Of a stretch of 44,140 nt of DNA, positions 15,499 to 20,559 are shown one piece after another. Every line of letters starts with the position of its first letter. Position 1 is the stretch's first letter. The position numbers and the translations under genes are program-made. The notes beneath the pieces were generated by a model. It worked only from the letters and a program-made list of their open reading frames with translations, had not been told where the DNA came from and did no database searches. Location of the stretch: NCBI GenBank assembly GCA_002457735.1, contig NTKO01000006.1, positions 1-44,140 of the forward strand. Direction: 5' to 3'. Source of the stretch: Bacteroidetes bacterium MED-G13. Lineage in GTDB: Bacteria; Bacteroidota; Bacteroidia; Flavobacteriales; Flavobacteriaceae.

Positions 15499-16089
15499 TT
15501 AATTATTAAGAGTTTTAAATCTGTTCAGATATTTTCCAATCATATCATATTCAATATTTACGAGATCCCCAATTTTCAAAGCCTGAAAGTTTGTGTTTTC
15601 ATAAGTGTAGGGAATAATAGCAACAGAAAAACGGTTTGCATCAATATTAAAAACCGTTAAGCTGATTCCATTAATGCAAACAGAGCCTTTATCTATGAGT
15701 AGCGCTTCAAATTTTTGGTTAAACTCAAATTCAAAAATCCAACTACCGTTTTCATCTTTAACAGAAACACATTTGGCCGTATCATCAACATGGCCTTGAA
15801 CCATGTGACCATCTAACCTTCCACCCATTTTCATTGCTCTTTCAATATTGATCGCATCACCTTTTTTGAGAGCTCCTAATGAGGACTTCTCTAAGGTTTC
15901 TTTAATGGCAACTACTTTATGACCACGATCATTACAATTTGTTACTGTCAAACAAACACCATTGTGAGATACACTCTGGTCAACTTTTAAGTCCTTGCTA
16001 ATATTACATTCAATTCCAAAAGTTATATTATCATTTTGTTTTTCAACACTAATAACTTTTCCAACATTTTCAATTATTCCTGTAAACAT
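15499..16089 (-). CDS. ribE: Riboflavin synthase alpha chain
   Basis: The enzyme dismutates two 6,7-dimethyl-8-ribityllumazine molecules to riboflavin in the last step of the pathway. The 196-residue protein starts with the diagnostic MFTGIIENVG and has two lumazine-binding repeats, the first with VSHNGVCLTV and the second with GHMVQGHVDDTA and GSVCINGISLTVF. It is divergent from pdxA, an arrangement typical of flavobacteria, and leads a likely operon with three envelope proteins that have no obvious link to flavin synthesis. Confidence 0.94.
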   Translation of the reverse strand: MFTGIIENVGKVISVEKQNDNITFGIECNISKDLKVDQSVSHNGVCLTVTNCNDRGHKVVAIKETLEKSSLGALKKGDAINIERAMKMGGRLDGHMVQGHVDDTAKCVSVKDENGSWIFEFEFNQKFEALLIDKGSVCINGISLTVFNIDANRFSVAIIPYTYENTNFQALKIGDLVNIEYDMIGKYLNRFKTLNN

Positions 16090-16141
16090 TATATGTATAA
16101 TATTTGATAAATTTACAGAAATAATGCCAGATTAATTTTAA

Positions 16142-17152
16142 TTGGAAAAAAGCAATAAAATAATAGTTGGAATAACAGCCGGAGACATGAACGGCATTGG
16201 ACCAGAAATTTTACTATCCATTTTGTCTAAAAATGAATTTCCAGAAAACTGTGTGCCAGTTGTATACGCATCTTATAAGAACCTGGAAAACACGAAAAGA
16301 CATCTTTCCATGAACTGTGAGCTGCGCTTAATTAATTCCTTTTCGGAGCTCGAGGATTCCGCAATTAATGTATTTGACATTGATGCACATGGAGCCACAA
16401 TCAATTATGGCAGAAAAGATAAAGCTATTGGAAAACTTGCGTATCATTGCTTAGCGCAAGCTGTTGAAGATCTAAATCAGGGAAATATTGATGTTTTAGT
16501 TACCGCTCCGATTAATAAGGAAACTATTCAATCCAAAAAATTTTCATTTATGGGCCATACCGACTATTTGAATGAAAACATAGAGGGAAGCTCCGTGATG
16601 ATGATGGTTTCAGAGTCCTTGAGAGTAGCCTTATTAACAGAGCACATGTCACTTTCCAAAGTTGCCGGCTCAATTTCAAAGGAGCTAGTTGAAAGCAGAA
16701 CGAAATCGATTCATAAAACACTGCAATTAGATTTTAATATTCATGATCCAAAAATTGCAATGCTATCTATTGACCCCCATGCAGGAGACAATGGAGTAAT
16801 AGGAACGATTGACAATATGGTTTTGGCTCCATGCATTAATTTTATGAAAAAAGAAGGTATGCTTGTTGACGGGCCATTTCCTGCAGATAGCTTTTTTGGA
16901 TCCAGGAAATACAAAGAATTTGATGTTGTAATAGCACCCTATCATGATCAGGGGCTGATTCCTTTTAAGACCTTGTCTTTCGGAAAAGGAGTAAATTTTA
17001 CTTCTGGGCTAAAACATGTGCGTACATCGCCAGACCATGGTACTGCCTACGAGATTGCTGGAAAAGGAGTAGCTAAAGACACTTCATTTTTAGAGGCGAT
17101 TAAGCTTGCCCTTGCGGTTTATAAAAACAGAAAACTTGCCACTGTAACGTAA
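16142..17152 (+). CDS. pdxA: 4-hydroxythreonine-4-phosphate dehydrogenase
   Basis: PdxA oxidises 4-phosphohydroxy-L-threonine in the vitamin B6 (pyridoxal phosphate) pathway. The 336-residue sequence has the family signatures GITAGDMNGIGPEI, FMGHTDYLNE, SIDPHAGDNG and APYHDQGLIPFK, which include the metal-binding histidines. The start is TTG at 16142; no ATG or GTG lies nearby that would keep the GITAGD motif. TAATTTTA, one mismatch from the -7 consensus, lies just upstream, so the leader would be very short. Confidence 0.93.
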   Translation: MEKSNKIIVGITAGDMNGIGPEILLSILSKNEFPENCVPVVYASYKNLENTKRHLSMNCELRLINSFSELEDSAINVFDIDAHGATINYGRKDKAIGKLAYHCLAQAVEDLNQGNIDVLVTAPINKETIQSKKFSFMGHTDYLNENIEGSSVMMMVSESLRVALLTEHMSLSKVAGSISKELVESRTKSIHKTLQLDFNIHDPKIAMLSIDPHAGDNGVIGTIDNMVLAPCINFMKKEGMLVDGPFPADSFFGSRKYKEFDVVIAPYHDQGLIPFKTLSFGKGVNFTSGLKHVRTSPDHGTAYEIAGKGVAKDTSFLEAIKLALAVYKNRKLATVT

Positions 17153-17187
17153 TTACTGAAATTATTAGCAGACTCAGAATAAATTTT

Positions 17188-17195
17188 TATATTTG
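17188..17195 (+). promoter_or_regulatory. -7 promoter element upstream of the DUF177-rpmF pair
   Basis: TATATTTG matches TAnnTTTG exactly and lies 18 bases before the ATG at 17214. It would drive the DUF177 and rpmF genes separately from pdxA. Confidence 0.5.
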
Positions 17196-17213
17196 CTGGC
17201 CTAAATTAATTTG

Positions 17214-17735
17214 ATGAAATCTATTAGTACACATAAAATAGAGTTCGCTGGACTAAAAGTTGGCAAGCATCAATTTAGTTTTGAGCTTAACAAAGAGTTC
17301 TTTGAAAATTTTAGTTTTTTTGACTTTAACAATATTAACCTCTGTGTTGATGTAGACTTAACCAAAAAGCCTACTTTATTAGAGTTAAATTTTCATGCAA
17401 AAGGATCTGTAAATGTTAATTGTGACATGACCAACGAGCCTTTTGACATGCCATTTAATAAAGAAGATTTTTTAGTTGTTAAGTTCGGACAAGAGTACAA
17501 TGACGAGGACAATGAAATTTTGGTGTTACCTTATCGTGAGCACAAAATTATTCTAGATCAATACTTATATGAATTAGTAATACTATCTTTGCCTAGAAAA
17601 CGAGTACACCCTGGAGTAGAGGATGGAACTCTAGAGTCAGAAATAATTAGAATATTAGACGAACTCAAACCTTCAGGACTCGCATTAGAATCGGATCCAA
17701 GATGGGAGAAATTAAAAAAAATAAAAAATAAATAG
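17214..17735 (+). CDS. DUF177 / YceD family protein (23S rRNA accumulation)
   Basis: The YceD/DUF177 family is needed for normal 23S rRNA accumulation in E. coli and plants, and its gene precedes rpmF in most bacteria, as it does here with 2 bases between them. The 173-residue protein shows the FxLN...FF start, a central [19 protein letters not shown] region (where the family has Cys pairs, here reduced to one) and [17 protein letters not shown] near the end. The ATG at 17214 is preferred to a TTG one codon earlier. Confidence 0.86.
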
Positions 17736-17737
17736 TT

Positions 17738-17941
17738 ATGGCACATCCAAAAAGAAAAACTTCGAAAACAAGAAGAGATAAAAGGAGAACACATTACAAG
17801 GCTGAGATGCCTCAGATTGCCGTTTGTTCAAAAACAGGTGAAAGCCATCTTTACCACAGAGCTTACTGGAGCGAAGGTAAACTATACTACAGAGGTAAAG
17901 TATTGATTGACAACACCGCCGTAGTAGAATCTGAATCTTAA
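17738..17941 (+). CDS. rpmF: Ribosomal protein bL32
   Basis: The 67-residue basic protein starts [20 protein letters not shown], which is diagnostic for bL32 of the large ribosomal subunit. Of the four zinc-binding cysteines seen in some bL32 forms only CSKTGE remains, so this is the zinc-free type common in this phylum. Its TAA stop and the stop of the convergent lipoprotein gene share the palindrome TTAA (17938-17941). In related genomes fabH usually follows here. Confidence 0.95.
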
Positions 17942-18393
17942 TTACTCTTTACTAACTTTTCTGTTGTTCCTTCGTCTATCAGCTTTCCCGGCGTATTAAA
18001 ACTAGACCACTTTCCATTTGTAAAGTTTTTTCCGTCAAAAATGTAGTGTGCAACTCCAAAATCTGTACAATTAGGATAATAATAGTTAACAGCAAAGTGC
18101 CCGTGCTTTTCTATTCCAATTCCAATATACTCTGCTTTATCATCTCTAAAGTAGTGCAGATAATACACATCTTGATACTTAAATACCTCAACAAGGCCTT
18201 TTTCGGAATTACCAGAAAAATATTTGTAAGTTCCGCACAAGGGATCATTTTCACATTGTATCATTAGTTCAGCCTTGTTATTGAAAGGCTCAATATTGTT
18301 AGGAAAATCAGTCATATTTATTGAAGGGGGAATATAACTATCTAAGCTACATGAGAAAACAGTTATTGAAACGATGAAGGCAATTTTTTTCAT
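17938..18393 (-). CDS. Hypothetical lipoprotein
   Basis: The 151-residue product has a lipoprotein signal, [15 protein letters not shown], with Cys15 as the likely lipidated residue. The mature part is acidic and rich in aromatic residues ([30 protein letters not shown]), with beta-strand character. I do not recognise a family. It converges with rpmF and shares its stop palindrome. It interrupts the usual rpmF-fabH-accB order on the opposite strand, so it may have been inserted when fabH was lost or moved. Confidence 0.7.
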
Positions 18394-18446
18394 ATCGTAA
18401 AATATTGTTTTAAAAATTTAATTATTCGTAAATCATAAATATCATT

Positions 18447-18546
18447 AAAAAAGTGTAAAAAATGACAAAAAATGAGCTTTTTTAATCATTTTTAGCAAAA
18501 AACTGTCAAAAAGTACTAAAAAGTACACTTTTTTGATAAAAAAATA
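18447..18546. repeat. Phased A/T tracts, block 1 (ten 10-bp units)
   Basis: Ten consecutive 10-base units each hold one A or T run: AAAAAAGTGT, AAAAAATGAC, AAAAAATGAG, CTTTTTTAAT, CATTTTTAGC, AAAAAACTGT, CAAAAAGTAC, TAAAAAGTAC, ACTTTTTTGA, TAAAAAAATA. The phase is kept with no insertions across the whole block. Units 7 and 8 are near-identical direct repeats containing the palindrome GTAC. Confidence 0.85.
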
Positions 18547-18597
18547 AATCTATAGAAATTAAATATTTGGTATATTTAGCACTAATTTATATAAGTG

Positions 18598-18675
18598 TTT
18601 TTTTGTCAAAAAATATCAGTTTTTGATCATTTTTGATCATTTTTGATCATTTTTTTGTCATTTTTGCTTGTTTTT
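18598..18675. repeat. Phased A/T tracts, block 2, with three exact TTTTTGATCA repeats
   Basis: Runs begin at 18598 (T), 18608 (A), 18620, 18630, 18640, 18650, 18661 and 18671 (T). Positions 18620-18649 are three exact tandem copies of the 10-mer TTTTTGATCA, each holding the palindrome TGATCA; a diverged fourth copy follows (TTTTTTTGTCA). The block ends about 40 bases before accB and could be a binding array for a regulator as well as a bend. Confidence 0.85.
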
Positions 18676-18717
18676 AAGCTAAAATCAACGATTTTTGATT
18701 ATTATTAAATTCATATT

Positions 18718-19209
18718 ATGCGAATTAAAGAAATACAAAGTCTAATTAAGTTTGTTGCCAAGTCTGGCGCTAGCGAAGTTAGCTTGGAAATGAAAGATGT
18801 TAAGATCACTATTAAAACATCCAGTGATAAGACCCCTGTAGTTATTCAAAACCCTGTTACTCAGCCCCCACAACTTGCAGATATTAATGTTGTTTCTCAA
18901 CCAGTTCAGGTTCAACCGGCTCAATCTGTTGATTCTGTACCTTCATCAGTCTCTGATGAAGAATCAAATCTTATAACAGTCAAATCTCCAATAATCGGCA
19001 CCTTTTATAGGAGGCCAGCCCCCGACAAGCCAGTTTTTGTTGAGGTTGGAGATACCGTTTCTGAAGGGTCAGTGTTATGTGTGATTGAGGCCATGAAACT
19101 TTTCAATGAAATTGAATCTGAGGTAATTGGGAAAATCGTGAAAATTCTTGTTGACGATTCTAGCCCAGTTGAATTTGACCAACCGTTATTTTTAGTAGAC
19201 CCATCTTAA
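18718..19209 (+). CDS. accB: Biotin carboxyl carrier protein of acetyl-CoA carboxylase
   Basis: AccB carries the biotin that shuttles CO2 in acetyl-CoA carboxylase, the first committed step of fatty acid synthesis. The 163-residue protein has the N-terminal helix region (IKEIQSLIKFVAKSGASEV), a Pro/Gln/Val-rich linker and the C-terminal biotinyl domain with VKSPIIGTFYRRP and IEAMKLFNEI, where Lys127 is the biotinylated residue. It is followed 9 bases later by accC. The unusual phased A-tract region sits directly upstream and probably governs its expression. Confidence 0.95.
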   Translation: MRIKEIQSLIKFVAKSGASEVSLEMKDVKITIKTSSDKTPVVIQNPVTQPPQLADINVVSQPVQVQPAQSVDSVPSSVSDEESNLITVKSPIIGTFYRRPAPDKPVFVEVGDTVSEGSVLCVIEAMKLFNEIESEVIGKIVKILVDDSSPVEFDQPLFLVDPS

Positions 19210-19218
19210 AATACAACT

Positions 19219-20559
19219 ATGTTTAAAAAGATCCTAATTGCTAATAGAGGTGAAATTGCATTGCGTGTCATTCGGACCTGCAAAGAAATGGGCATCGCAA
19301 CCGTTGCAGTATATTCTACCGCTGATGAAGAAAGCATACATGTTACTTTTGCCGATGAAGCAGTATGTATTGGACCCCCATCTAGCCAGGATTCTTATTT
19401 GAAAATTTCTAATATTATTGCTGCCGCTGAAATCACAAATGCTGATGCCATTCATCCAGGATATGGGTTTTTGTCGGAAAATGCGAAATTCTCAAAAATT
19501 TGTGAAGAGCACGGAATAAAATTCATTGGAGCATCTCCAGAAATGATCAATAAAATGGGAGATAAAGCCACTGCAAAAGCGACAATGATTGAGGCCGGTG
19601 TGCCCTGTGTTCCGGGAAGCGCGGGGATTATTGAATCTTTTGACCATTGTAAAAAATTGGCTAACACTATAAGCTATCCAGTTATGTTAAAAGCTAGTGC
19701 TGGTGGAGGTGGAAAAGGGATGCGCGCTGTTTGGAAAGAAGAAGACTTAGAAGATGCATGGAACTCCGCTAGACAAGAGTCTAAAGCAGCTTTTGCGAAC
19801 GACGACATGTACATGGAAAAATTAATTGAGGAGCCTAGACATATAGAGATTCAAATTGTTGGAGACTCCAAAGGAAGGGCATGTCACCTTTCTGAAAGAG
19901 ATTGCTCAATTCAAAGGAGGCACCAGAAGTTAACTGAGGAAGTACCCTCCCCCTTTATGACTGAAAAATTGAGAGAAAAAATGGGTGAAGCGGCCATTAG
20001 AGCAGCAGAGTATATAAAGTATGAAGGGGTAGGAACGGTGGAGTTTTTAGTAGATAAGAATCGTAAGTTCTACTTTATGGAGATGAACACAAGAATCCAA
20101 GTTGAACACCCAATAACTGAGCAAGTAATTGAGTATGACTTAATTCGGGAGCAAATCAAGGTTGCATATGGGAAAAGGATCACAGGAAAGAATTATTTAC
20201 CACAATTATTTTCTGTGGAGTGTAGAATTAATGCTGAAGATCCTTACAATGAATTTAGACCTTCGCCTGGGAAAATCACTAACCTTCATATTCCAGGTGG
20301 ACATGGCGTGAGAGTAGACACACATGTATATGCAGGGTATACGATTCCTCCAAATTACGACTCCATGATAGCCAAATTAATTACCACTGCACAAAGCAGG
20401 GAAGAAGCAATTAATAAAATGAAGAGAGCATTAGATGAATTTGTAATTGAAGGAATTCATACAACCATTCCATTTCATAGTAAGCTGATGGAACATCCGT
20501 CTTATTTAGAAGGAAAGTACACTACCAAGTTTATGGAAGATTTCTCAATGGAGGATTAA
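19219..20559 (+). CDS. accC: Biotin carboxylase of acetyl-CoA carboxylase
   Basis: AccC carboxylates the biotin on AccB using ATP and bicarbonate. The 446-residue sequence has the full family layout: N-terminal [33 protein letters not shown], the ATP-grasp glycine loop [12 protein letters not shown], and the [14 protein letters not shown] active-site stretch. Length and order are normal. It lies 9 bases after accB, and its TAA is followed at once by the ATG of the lysine-dehydrogenase-like gene, so the three are very likely one operon. Confidence 0.96.

Follow-up and report, generated by a model that had tools for sequence, protein, structure and literature searches.

Phased A-tracts at bacterial promoters have been discussed for decades, mostly as short natural bends, as artificial constructs and as weak genome averages. 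In Escherichia coli, UP elements and upstream A-tracts are contacted by the C-terminal domain of the RNA polymerase alpha subunit (alpha-CTD), according to the studies by Ross (1993), Estrem (1998) and Aiyar (1998) as they are cited in PMC4081817. Curved DNA with phased A-tracts lies upstream of genes in cyanobacteria, and the A-tracts of Synechocystis are aligned with start sites, as far as PMC9825172 and the works it cites describe them. The sabA promoter of Helicobacter pylori combines UP-like A-boxes with a T-tract, and their alignment with the core promoter sets the output (PMC4081817). Promoters of Flavobacterium johnsoniae have the -7 consensus TAHHTTTG 4-5 bases before the transcription start. 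AT-rich motifs follow at -18 and -28, each a further helical turn upstream, and the -33 motif is poor (PMC6847099). In this article, we describe an array of helically phased A/T runs directly upstream of accB, a gene for the initial step of fatty-acid synthesis, in contig NTKO01000006.1 of Bacteroidetes bacterium MED-G13. The window is this one whole contig (C29; 44,140 nucleotides) of a 1.06-Mb flavobacterial genome that is 82% complete. Sequence comparison within the genus makes selection on DNA shape at accB a well supported interpretation.

The accB array represents a familiar principle in a form of unusual length, regularity and conservation. It resembles the E. coli UP elements in that the contact residues of alpha-CTD are present: rpoA of this genome encodes VRALNCLKAA and FGKKSLTE, letters that presumably correspond to the E. 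coli residues R265, N268, C269, G296, K298 and S299, which contact A-tract minor grooves. However, there are ~20 tracts over 250 base pairs (bp) here rather than a short region, the promoter is of the Bacteroidetes -7 type, and the conservation of phase is seen by comparison within a genus. With Synechocystis the locus shares helically phased A-tracts in promoter register, for which sensitivity to supercoiling has been proposed (PMC9825172), but the Synechocystis signal is a genome-wide average over many promoters whereas the accB array is a single extreme case at one operon. Phased A-boxes act in an UP-like manner at sabA, a role that is only predicted for accB, where there is no single tract of variable length and the phase is fixed in all relatives. 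Like other flavobacterial sigma-A promoters (PMC6847099), the putative accB promoter has tracts close to the -18 and -28 sites upstream of its -7 element, but the accB series runs many turns further upstream.

The array consists of 20 A/T runs of at least 4 bases at positions 18447-18696, arranged in two blocks of ten with ~50 bp without runs between them (Table 1). All runs of the distal block (block 1) are 5-7 bases long, as the preliminary description of this DNA had stated; their centres extend from 18449.5 to 18541 with a mean spacing of 10.17 bp. The proximal block (block 2) is made up of T7, A6 and six T runs of 5-7 bases at 18598-18675, followed by A4 at 18681 and T5 at 18692, the last of which falls within the predicted -7 element. 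Its runs are T on the coding strand except for the A runs at 18608 and 18681. The preliminary description correctly recognized that the pattern is repeated in this block with three exact decamer copies, which are those of TTTTTGATCA at 18620-18649, but ended the array slightly short, at 18675. Similarly, its claim of a 10-base phase kept without a slip holds for the phase but not for the exact period, which across both blocks is ~10.2 bp and not 10.0. Phase coherence is 9.45 of 10 tracts in block 1, 9.63 of 10 in block 2 and 18.70 of 20 for both jointly. Of 2000 dinucleotide shuffles, not one matched these values, whether for a single block or for the two jointly, which agrees with the original assertion that the phase exceeds what mere AT-richness would produce. 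When the real tracts and spacers were permuted, the observed coherence was matched in 21 of 2000 permutations for block 1, in 1 of 2000 for block 2 and in none of 2000 jointly; block 1 alone is therefore partly explained by uniform unit length, which does not hold for block 2 or for the joint phase. The observation of the array is confirmed and is stronger than first stated.

A scan of 1,060,779 bases of the genome for phased windows placed the proximal block first and the distal block second, with scores of 9.58 and 9.35, the third window scoring only 7.58; no other array of this kind was found in the scan. Models predict that the array region is intrinsically curved, with static curvature well above background. 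In a tract-bend model with 18 degrees per run, each block bends by ~140-170 degrees, and the blocks are the top windows. At a helical repeat of 10.34 the bend is ~160-170 degrees per block and ~206 degrees for both blocks together. At a repeat of 10.5 the net planar bend of both blocks falls to 25 degrees and the path leaves the plane. Because the model varies in this way with the helical repeat, the overall shape would depend on in-vivo twist and supercoiling. Judged by a dinucleotide wedge model, the curvature of the proximal block exceeds the 99.9th percentile, yet several unrelated windows score equally high, and static curvature in this model is a poor discriminator. The strong intrinsic curvature proposed in the preliminary description is thus borne out as a prediction, but not as a unique property of this region.

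We searched 20 genomes of the same genus, obtained the DNA upstream of accB from 15 of them and compared, together with this genome, 16 regions; all genomes of the genus are incomplete drafts. Phased tracts are present in 16 of 16 regions, and the 10-base phase is accordingly found in every aligned relative. In four relatives with contigs of 65-97 kilobases (kb), the highest or near-highest phased windows are the accB upstream region. Counted from the accB start, the 16 genomes share a 10.25-bp grid with tracts at -24, -34, -44 and each turn to about -116, nothing regular from there to about -177, and tracts again to about -285; the fit is looser in L006, L011, L012 and L017. Compared with shuffles of each genome's own sequence in 14 genomes, the in-phase sum reaches z=14.9 in the proximal block, 10.3 in the distal block and 0.5 in the gap. 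Members of one clade do not provide independent sequences, a problem that is addressed only in part by a test with one genome per clade; this test gives z=10.0, 6.7 and 1.6, respectively, and a further phased signal at -300 to -400 from accB.

What is conserved is the position of the tracts and not the bases between them. In the alignment in register, tract columns are 0.87-0.97 identical as opposed to 0.45-0.50 for spacer columns, the 5-bp spacers having diverged between relatives to about half identity. Locus L005 contains 11 extra bases, which is one helical turn, and the phase is kept. In the distal block (-178 to -270) the same turn may carry an A run or a T run among relatives. From -96 to -44 every in-phase tract is T on the coding strand in the 16 genomes, and the tract at -34 is an A run in each of the 16. 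Conservation of the helical face extends over the whole array, that of polarity only over the part near the gene. Since phase is kept while spacers and distal polarity change, selection appears to act on the geometry of the helical face and not on TGATCA or TGTCAAAAA sites. The preliminary description had suggested control of accB by DNA shape, which we retain and extend to shape as a selected property, or by a regulator binding such arrayed sites, which we do not retain; recurring TGATCA or TGTCAAAAA sites are not conserved in the 16 aligned regions.

The array leads into a putative promoter. From the position of the predicted -7 element, transcription would start at ~18702-18703. In 13 of the 16 genomes, [CG]A[AT]TTTTG is found at -28 to -26 from accB, and no other -7-like word is conserved. 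Among genes of this genome, called by a simple open-reading-frame rule, occurrences of TAHHTTTG concentrate sharply at -30 to -21 from the start codon, with 46 in this bin compared to at most 22 in any other, and control words show no comparable peak. The accB element lies at this modal position and matches TAnnTTTG in 7 of 8 letters. Motif discovery for promoters by expectation maximization yielded low-complexity or meaningless motifs only. The accB runs at -34 and -44 roughly coincide with the F. johnsoniae motifs at -18 and -28, and the grid also includes the T run within the -7 element, hence the array seems to continue the promoter in the upstream direction. With a start near 18702, the zone of fixed polarity would end ~80-100 bp upstream of it, which is approximately the reach of wrapped RNA polymerase in E. 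coli.

Our preferred interpretation, to which we assign a probability of about 0.6, is that the array extends the accBC promoter upstream by an exceptionally long, curved stretch of UP-element-like DNA that acts via polymerase contacts and wrapping. We infer from the DNA sequence an active promoter at the accB -7 site, contact between polymerase and tracts, and raised transcription, as well as what the distal block does and the succession of evolutionary steps given further below. A weak -7 element would drive accBC. About ten T/A runs upstream of it, one per turn on one face of the helix, would produce narrow minor grooves and a strong bend; the alpha-CTDs would bind the proximal T-runs and the polymerase would wrap the upstream DNA. 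Binding and wrapping would raise promoter occupancy and make up for the weakness of the -7 element. The distal block would keep the helical face and lengthen the curved path, shape alone being of importance there, and HU or negative supercoiling may hold this distal part.

Several observations weigh against this interpretation. None of the genomes has the near-invariant T at position -12 of the aligned accB -7 element, because of which the core promoter of accB is probably weak, and 3 of the 16 genomes deviate further from the element. The form [CG]AnnTTTG is not enriched genome-wide, and a genome-wide search found no support for a -33 motif. At other promoters of the genome the phased signal is weak (R=0.15). 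Moreover, UP elements of E. coli are short and located at about -40 to -60, such that an array of 250 bp exceeds what contacts with alpha-CTD by themselves need.

That excess is also what a different interpretation would explain, namely that the array chiefly provides a platform to a nucleoid protein, either HU-like or an unknown architectural protein of flavobacteria, which wraps or bridges the DNA and places accBC under control of growth state or supercoiling, with polymerase contacts being secondary. Two separate blocks share one phase over ~250 bp, the free distal A/T polarity suits a reading of shape, the period of ~10.25, below 10.5, gives an out-of-plane and probably left-handed path in a simple model, and an HU-family protein is encoded in the genome. 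However, the fixed proximal polarity and the continuation of the array in phase into the -7 element indicate polymerase, and a single array in the whole genome would be odd for a general nucleoid protein. We consider the platform rather unlikely, though it deserves to be kept in mind. A further candidate, weakened by the conservation data, is a sequence-specific regulator recognizing arrayed decamers such as TTTTTGATCA or TGTCAAAAA. The three exact copies of TTTTTGATCA in the window would suit it, as would a similar run in L003, but the latter sits in the other block, spacers are about half identical in register, and distal A and T runs swap strands; the spacer and tract identities given above led us to reject arrayed decamer sites, and the regulator is improbable. 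The occurrence of the TTTTTGATCA decamer in the proximal block of this genome and in the distal block of L003 is an observation in its own right, which suggests that slippage or conversion created the decamer repeatedly. The whole array could also be imagined as a functionless mutational by-product of AT-rich DNA in which 10-bp units slipped, and short exact tandem copies are present. Yet the 10.25 period follows a grid shared across clades, tracts stay while spacers have diverged, A and T runs are swapped in phase and the locus is single in the genome; these comparative data largely refute the by-product, which we regard as the least probable of all explanations.

Two further explanations separate the array from accB. 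The array might be a chromosomal element, for example a replication origin, found beside accB by chance. In favour of this, the cumulative GC skew falls to a local minimum no more than ~3 kb from accB in 4 of 5 contigs (at ~16000-19000 in the window, and in relatives G016:C4, G008:C4 and G015:C9); these contigs are 44-97 kb long and cannot be placed in order. Conversely, dnaA lies on a different contig, the grid takes its register from the start of accB and continues into the -7 element, and the gene beyond the array varies among relatives that all retain accB. In five genomes, the 700 bp preceding accB contain no DnaA box TTWTNCACA, and an origin at this site was rejected as very improbable. 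In G017 a cluster of DnaA boxes lies ~26 kb downstream of accB. It is just as hard to credit that the array acts on the upstream neighbour instead of accB. Where a gene was found on that side, it is usually divergent and starts 310-570 bp from accB, but it varies among relatives while array and accB are constant, and both polarity and phase are tightest beside accB. Among other candidates, an RNA family or riboswitch was dismissed, the window having no Rfam match apart from one tRNA elsewhere, and a phage origin was dismissed after no match was found in phage records.

Table 1. Features of the accB region, in positions of the window
Feature	Coordinates	Strand	Remarks
rpmF-like gene	17738..17941	+	named by eye; precedes replaced fabH position
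Divergent small lipoprotein-like gene, old fabH position	17938..18393	-	no Pfam or NCBIfam match
ATTATTCGTAA, copy of recurring ATTCRTAAT-like element	18421..18431	+	beyond distal block
Distal block (block 1)	18447..18544	.	-271 to -174 from accB start; ten A/T runs
AT-rich gap without A/T runs	18545..18597	.	about five helical turns; phase carried across
Proximal block (block 2)	18598..18696	.	ten A/T runs, spacing 10.3 bp
Candidate -33 element TTG	18668..18670	+	19 bp before -7 element; from sequence and alignment of 16 relatives
Predicted -7 element GATTTTTG	18690..18697	+	near consensus TAnnTTTG, without T at -12
accB, biotin carboxyl carrier protein of acetyl-CoA carboxylase	18718..19209	+	TIGR00531 above cut-off
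accC, biotin carboxylase	19219..20559	+	TIGR00514 above cut-off; directly 3' of accB

Outside the genus we covered 80 named accB loci of other flavobacteria and ~20 further genomes, the latter read in part. An open frame ends at most 152 bp upstream of accB in 80 of the 80 named loci, and it is fabH in those loci where its identity was read; no phased array was found in these 80 loci. The search for canonical FabH in 21 genomes of the genus, which are incomplete, did not find it, and most of them retain only a distant KAS III of ~352 amino acids with 33-36% identity. In G000 this distant KAS III adjoins methyltransferase- and glycosyltransferase-like frames. Although these genomes are incomplete, the surroundings of accB make plain that fabH is missing from its usual place. 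The simplest story is that the genus lost the canonical fabH that normally lies directly upstream of accB. The array appears to be confined to one genus and tied to the loss of fabH, and not to be a general flavobacterial element; the preliminary description had known of no such element described from flavobacteria. In the proposed order of events, fabH would have been lost, variable genes would have filled its place, and accBC would have gained its own strong promoter with the array.

The rpmF-like gene is found upstream of the array in at least six loci (L002, L010, L014, L015, L017 and L018). Between rpmF and the array, many of the relatives L003-L018 carry differing genes, usually on the minus strand; at the fabH position there are a lipoprotein-like gene, a 204-amino-acid protein, a repeat-rich surface-protein-like frame, an ABC-transporter-ATPase-like frame and small frames. 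The old fabH position looks like a hotspot of gene replacement. An ATTCRTAAT-like element (ATTATTCGTAA or ATTATTGAATTCATAAT) recurs beside the phased blocks in steps of ~140-150 bp, at about -150, -295 and -440 from accB. Copies are located at -441 and -288 in L010, -277 in L011, -275 in L012, about -151 in L004, L007 and L009, and -285 and -141 in L006. This element may be a separate binding site.

Phased A-tracts have rarely been accompanied by evidence of the kind obtained from the 16-genome comparison, in which the helical phase itself appears to be selected over at least 250 bp and the bases between tracts are nearly free. The locus separates two constraints, a fixed polarity near the polymerase and a free polarity farther out, and the question of shape as opposed to contact with tracts is directly testable at the accB array. 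More tentatively, the array could be a genus-specific regulatory element that is defined solely by the geometry of the helical face, a shape-coded enhancer or supercoiling sensor in which ~20-25 phased tracts along a curved, probably left-handed path of at least 250 bp would set the level of acetyl-CoA carboxylase in the absence of canonical FabH, with polarity being read only near the polymerase and nothing but shape farther out. The array also links the question of DNA shape to a rewired fatty-acid operon in a genus of small genomes without canonical FabH.
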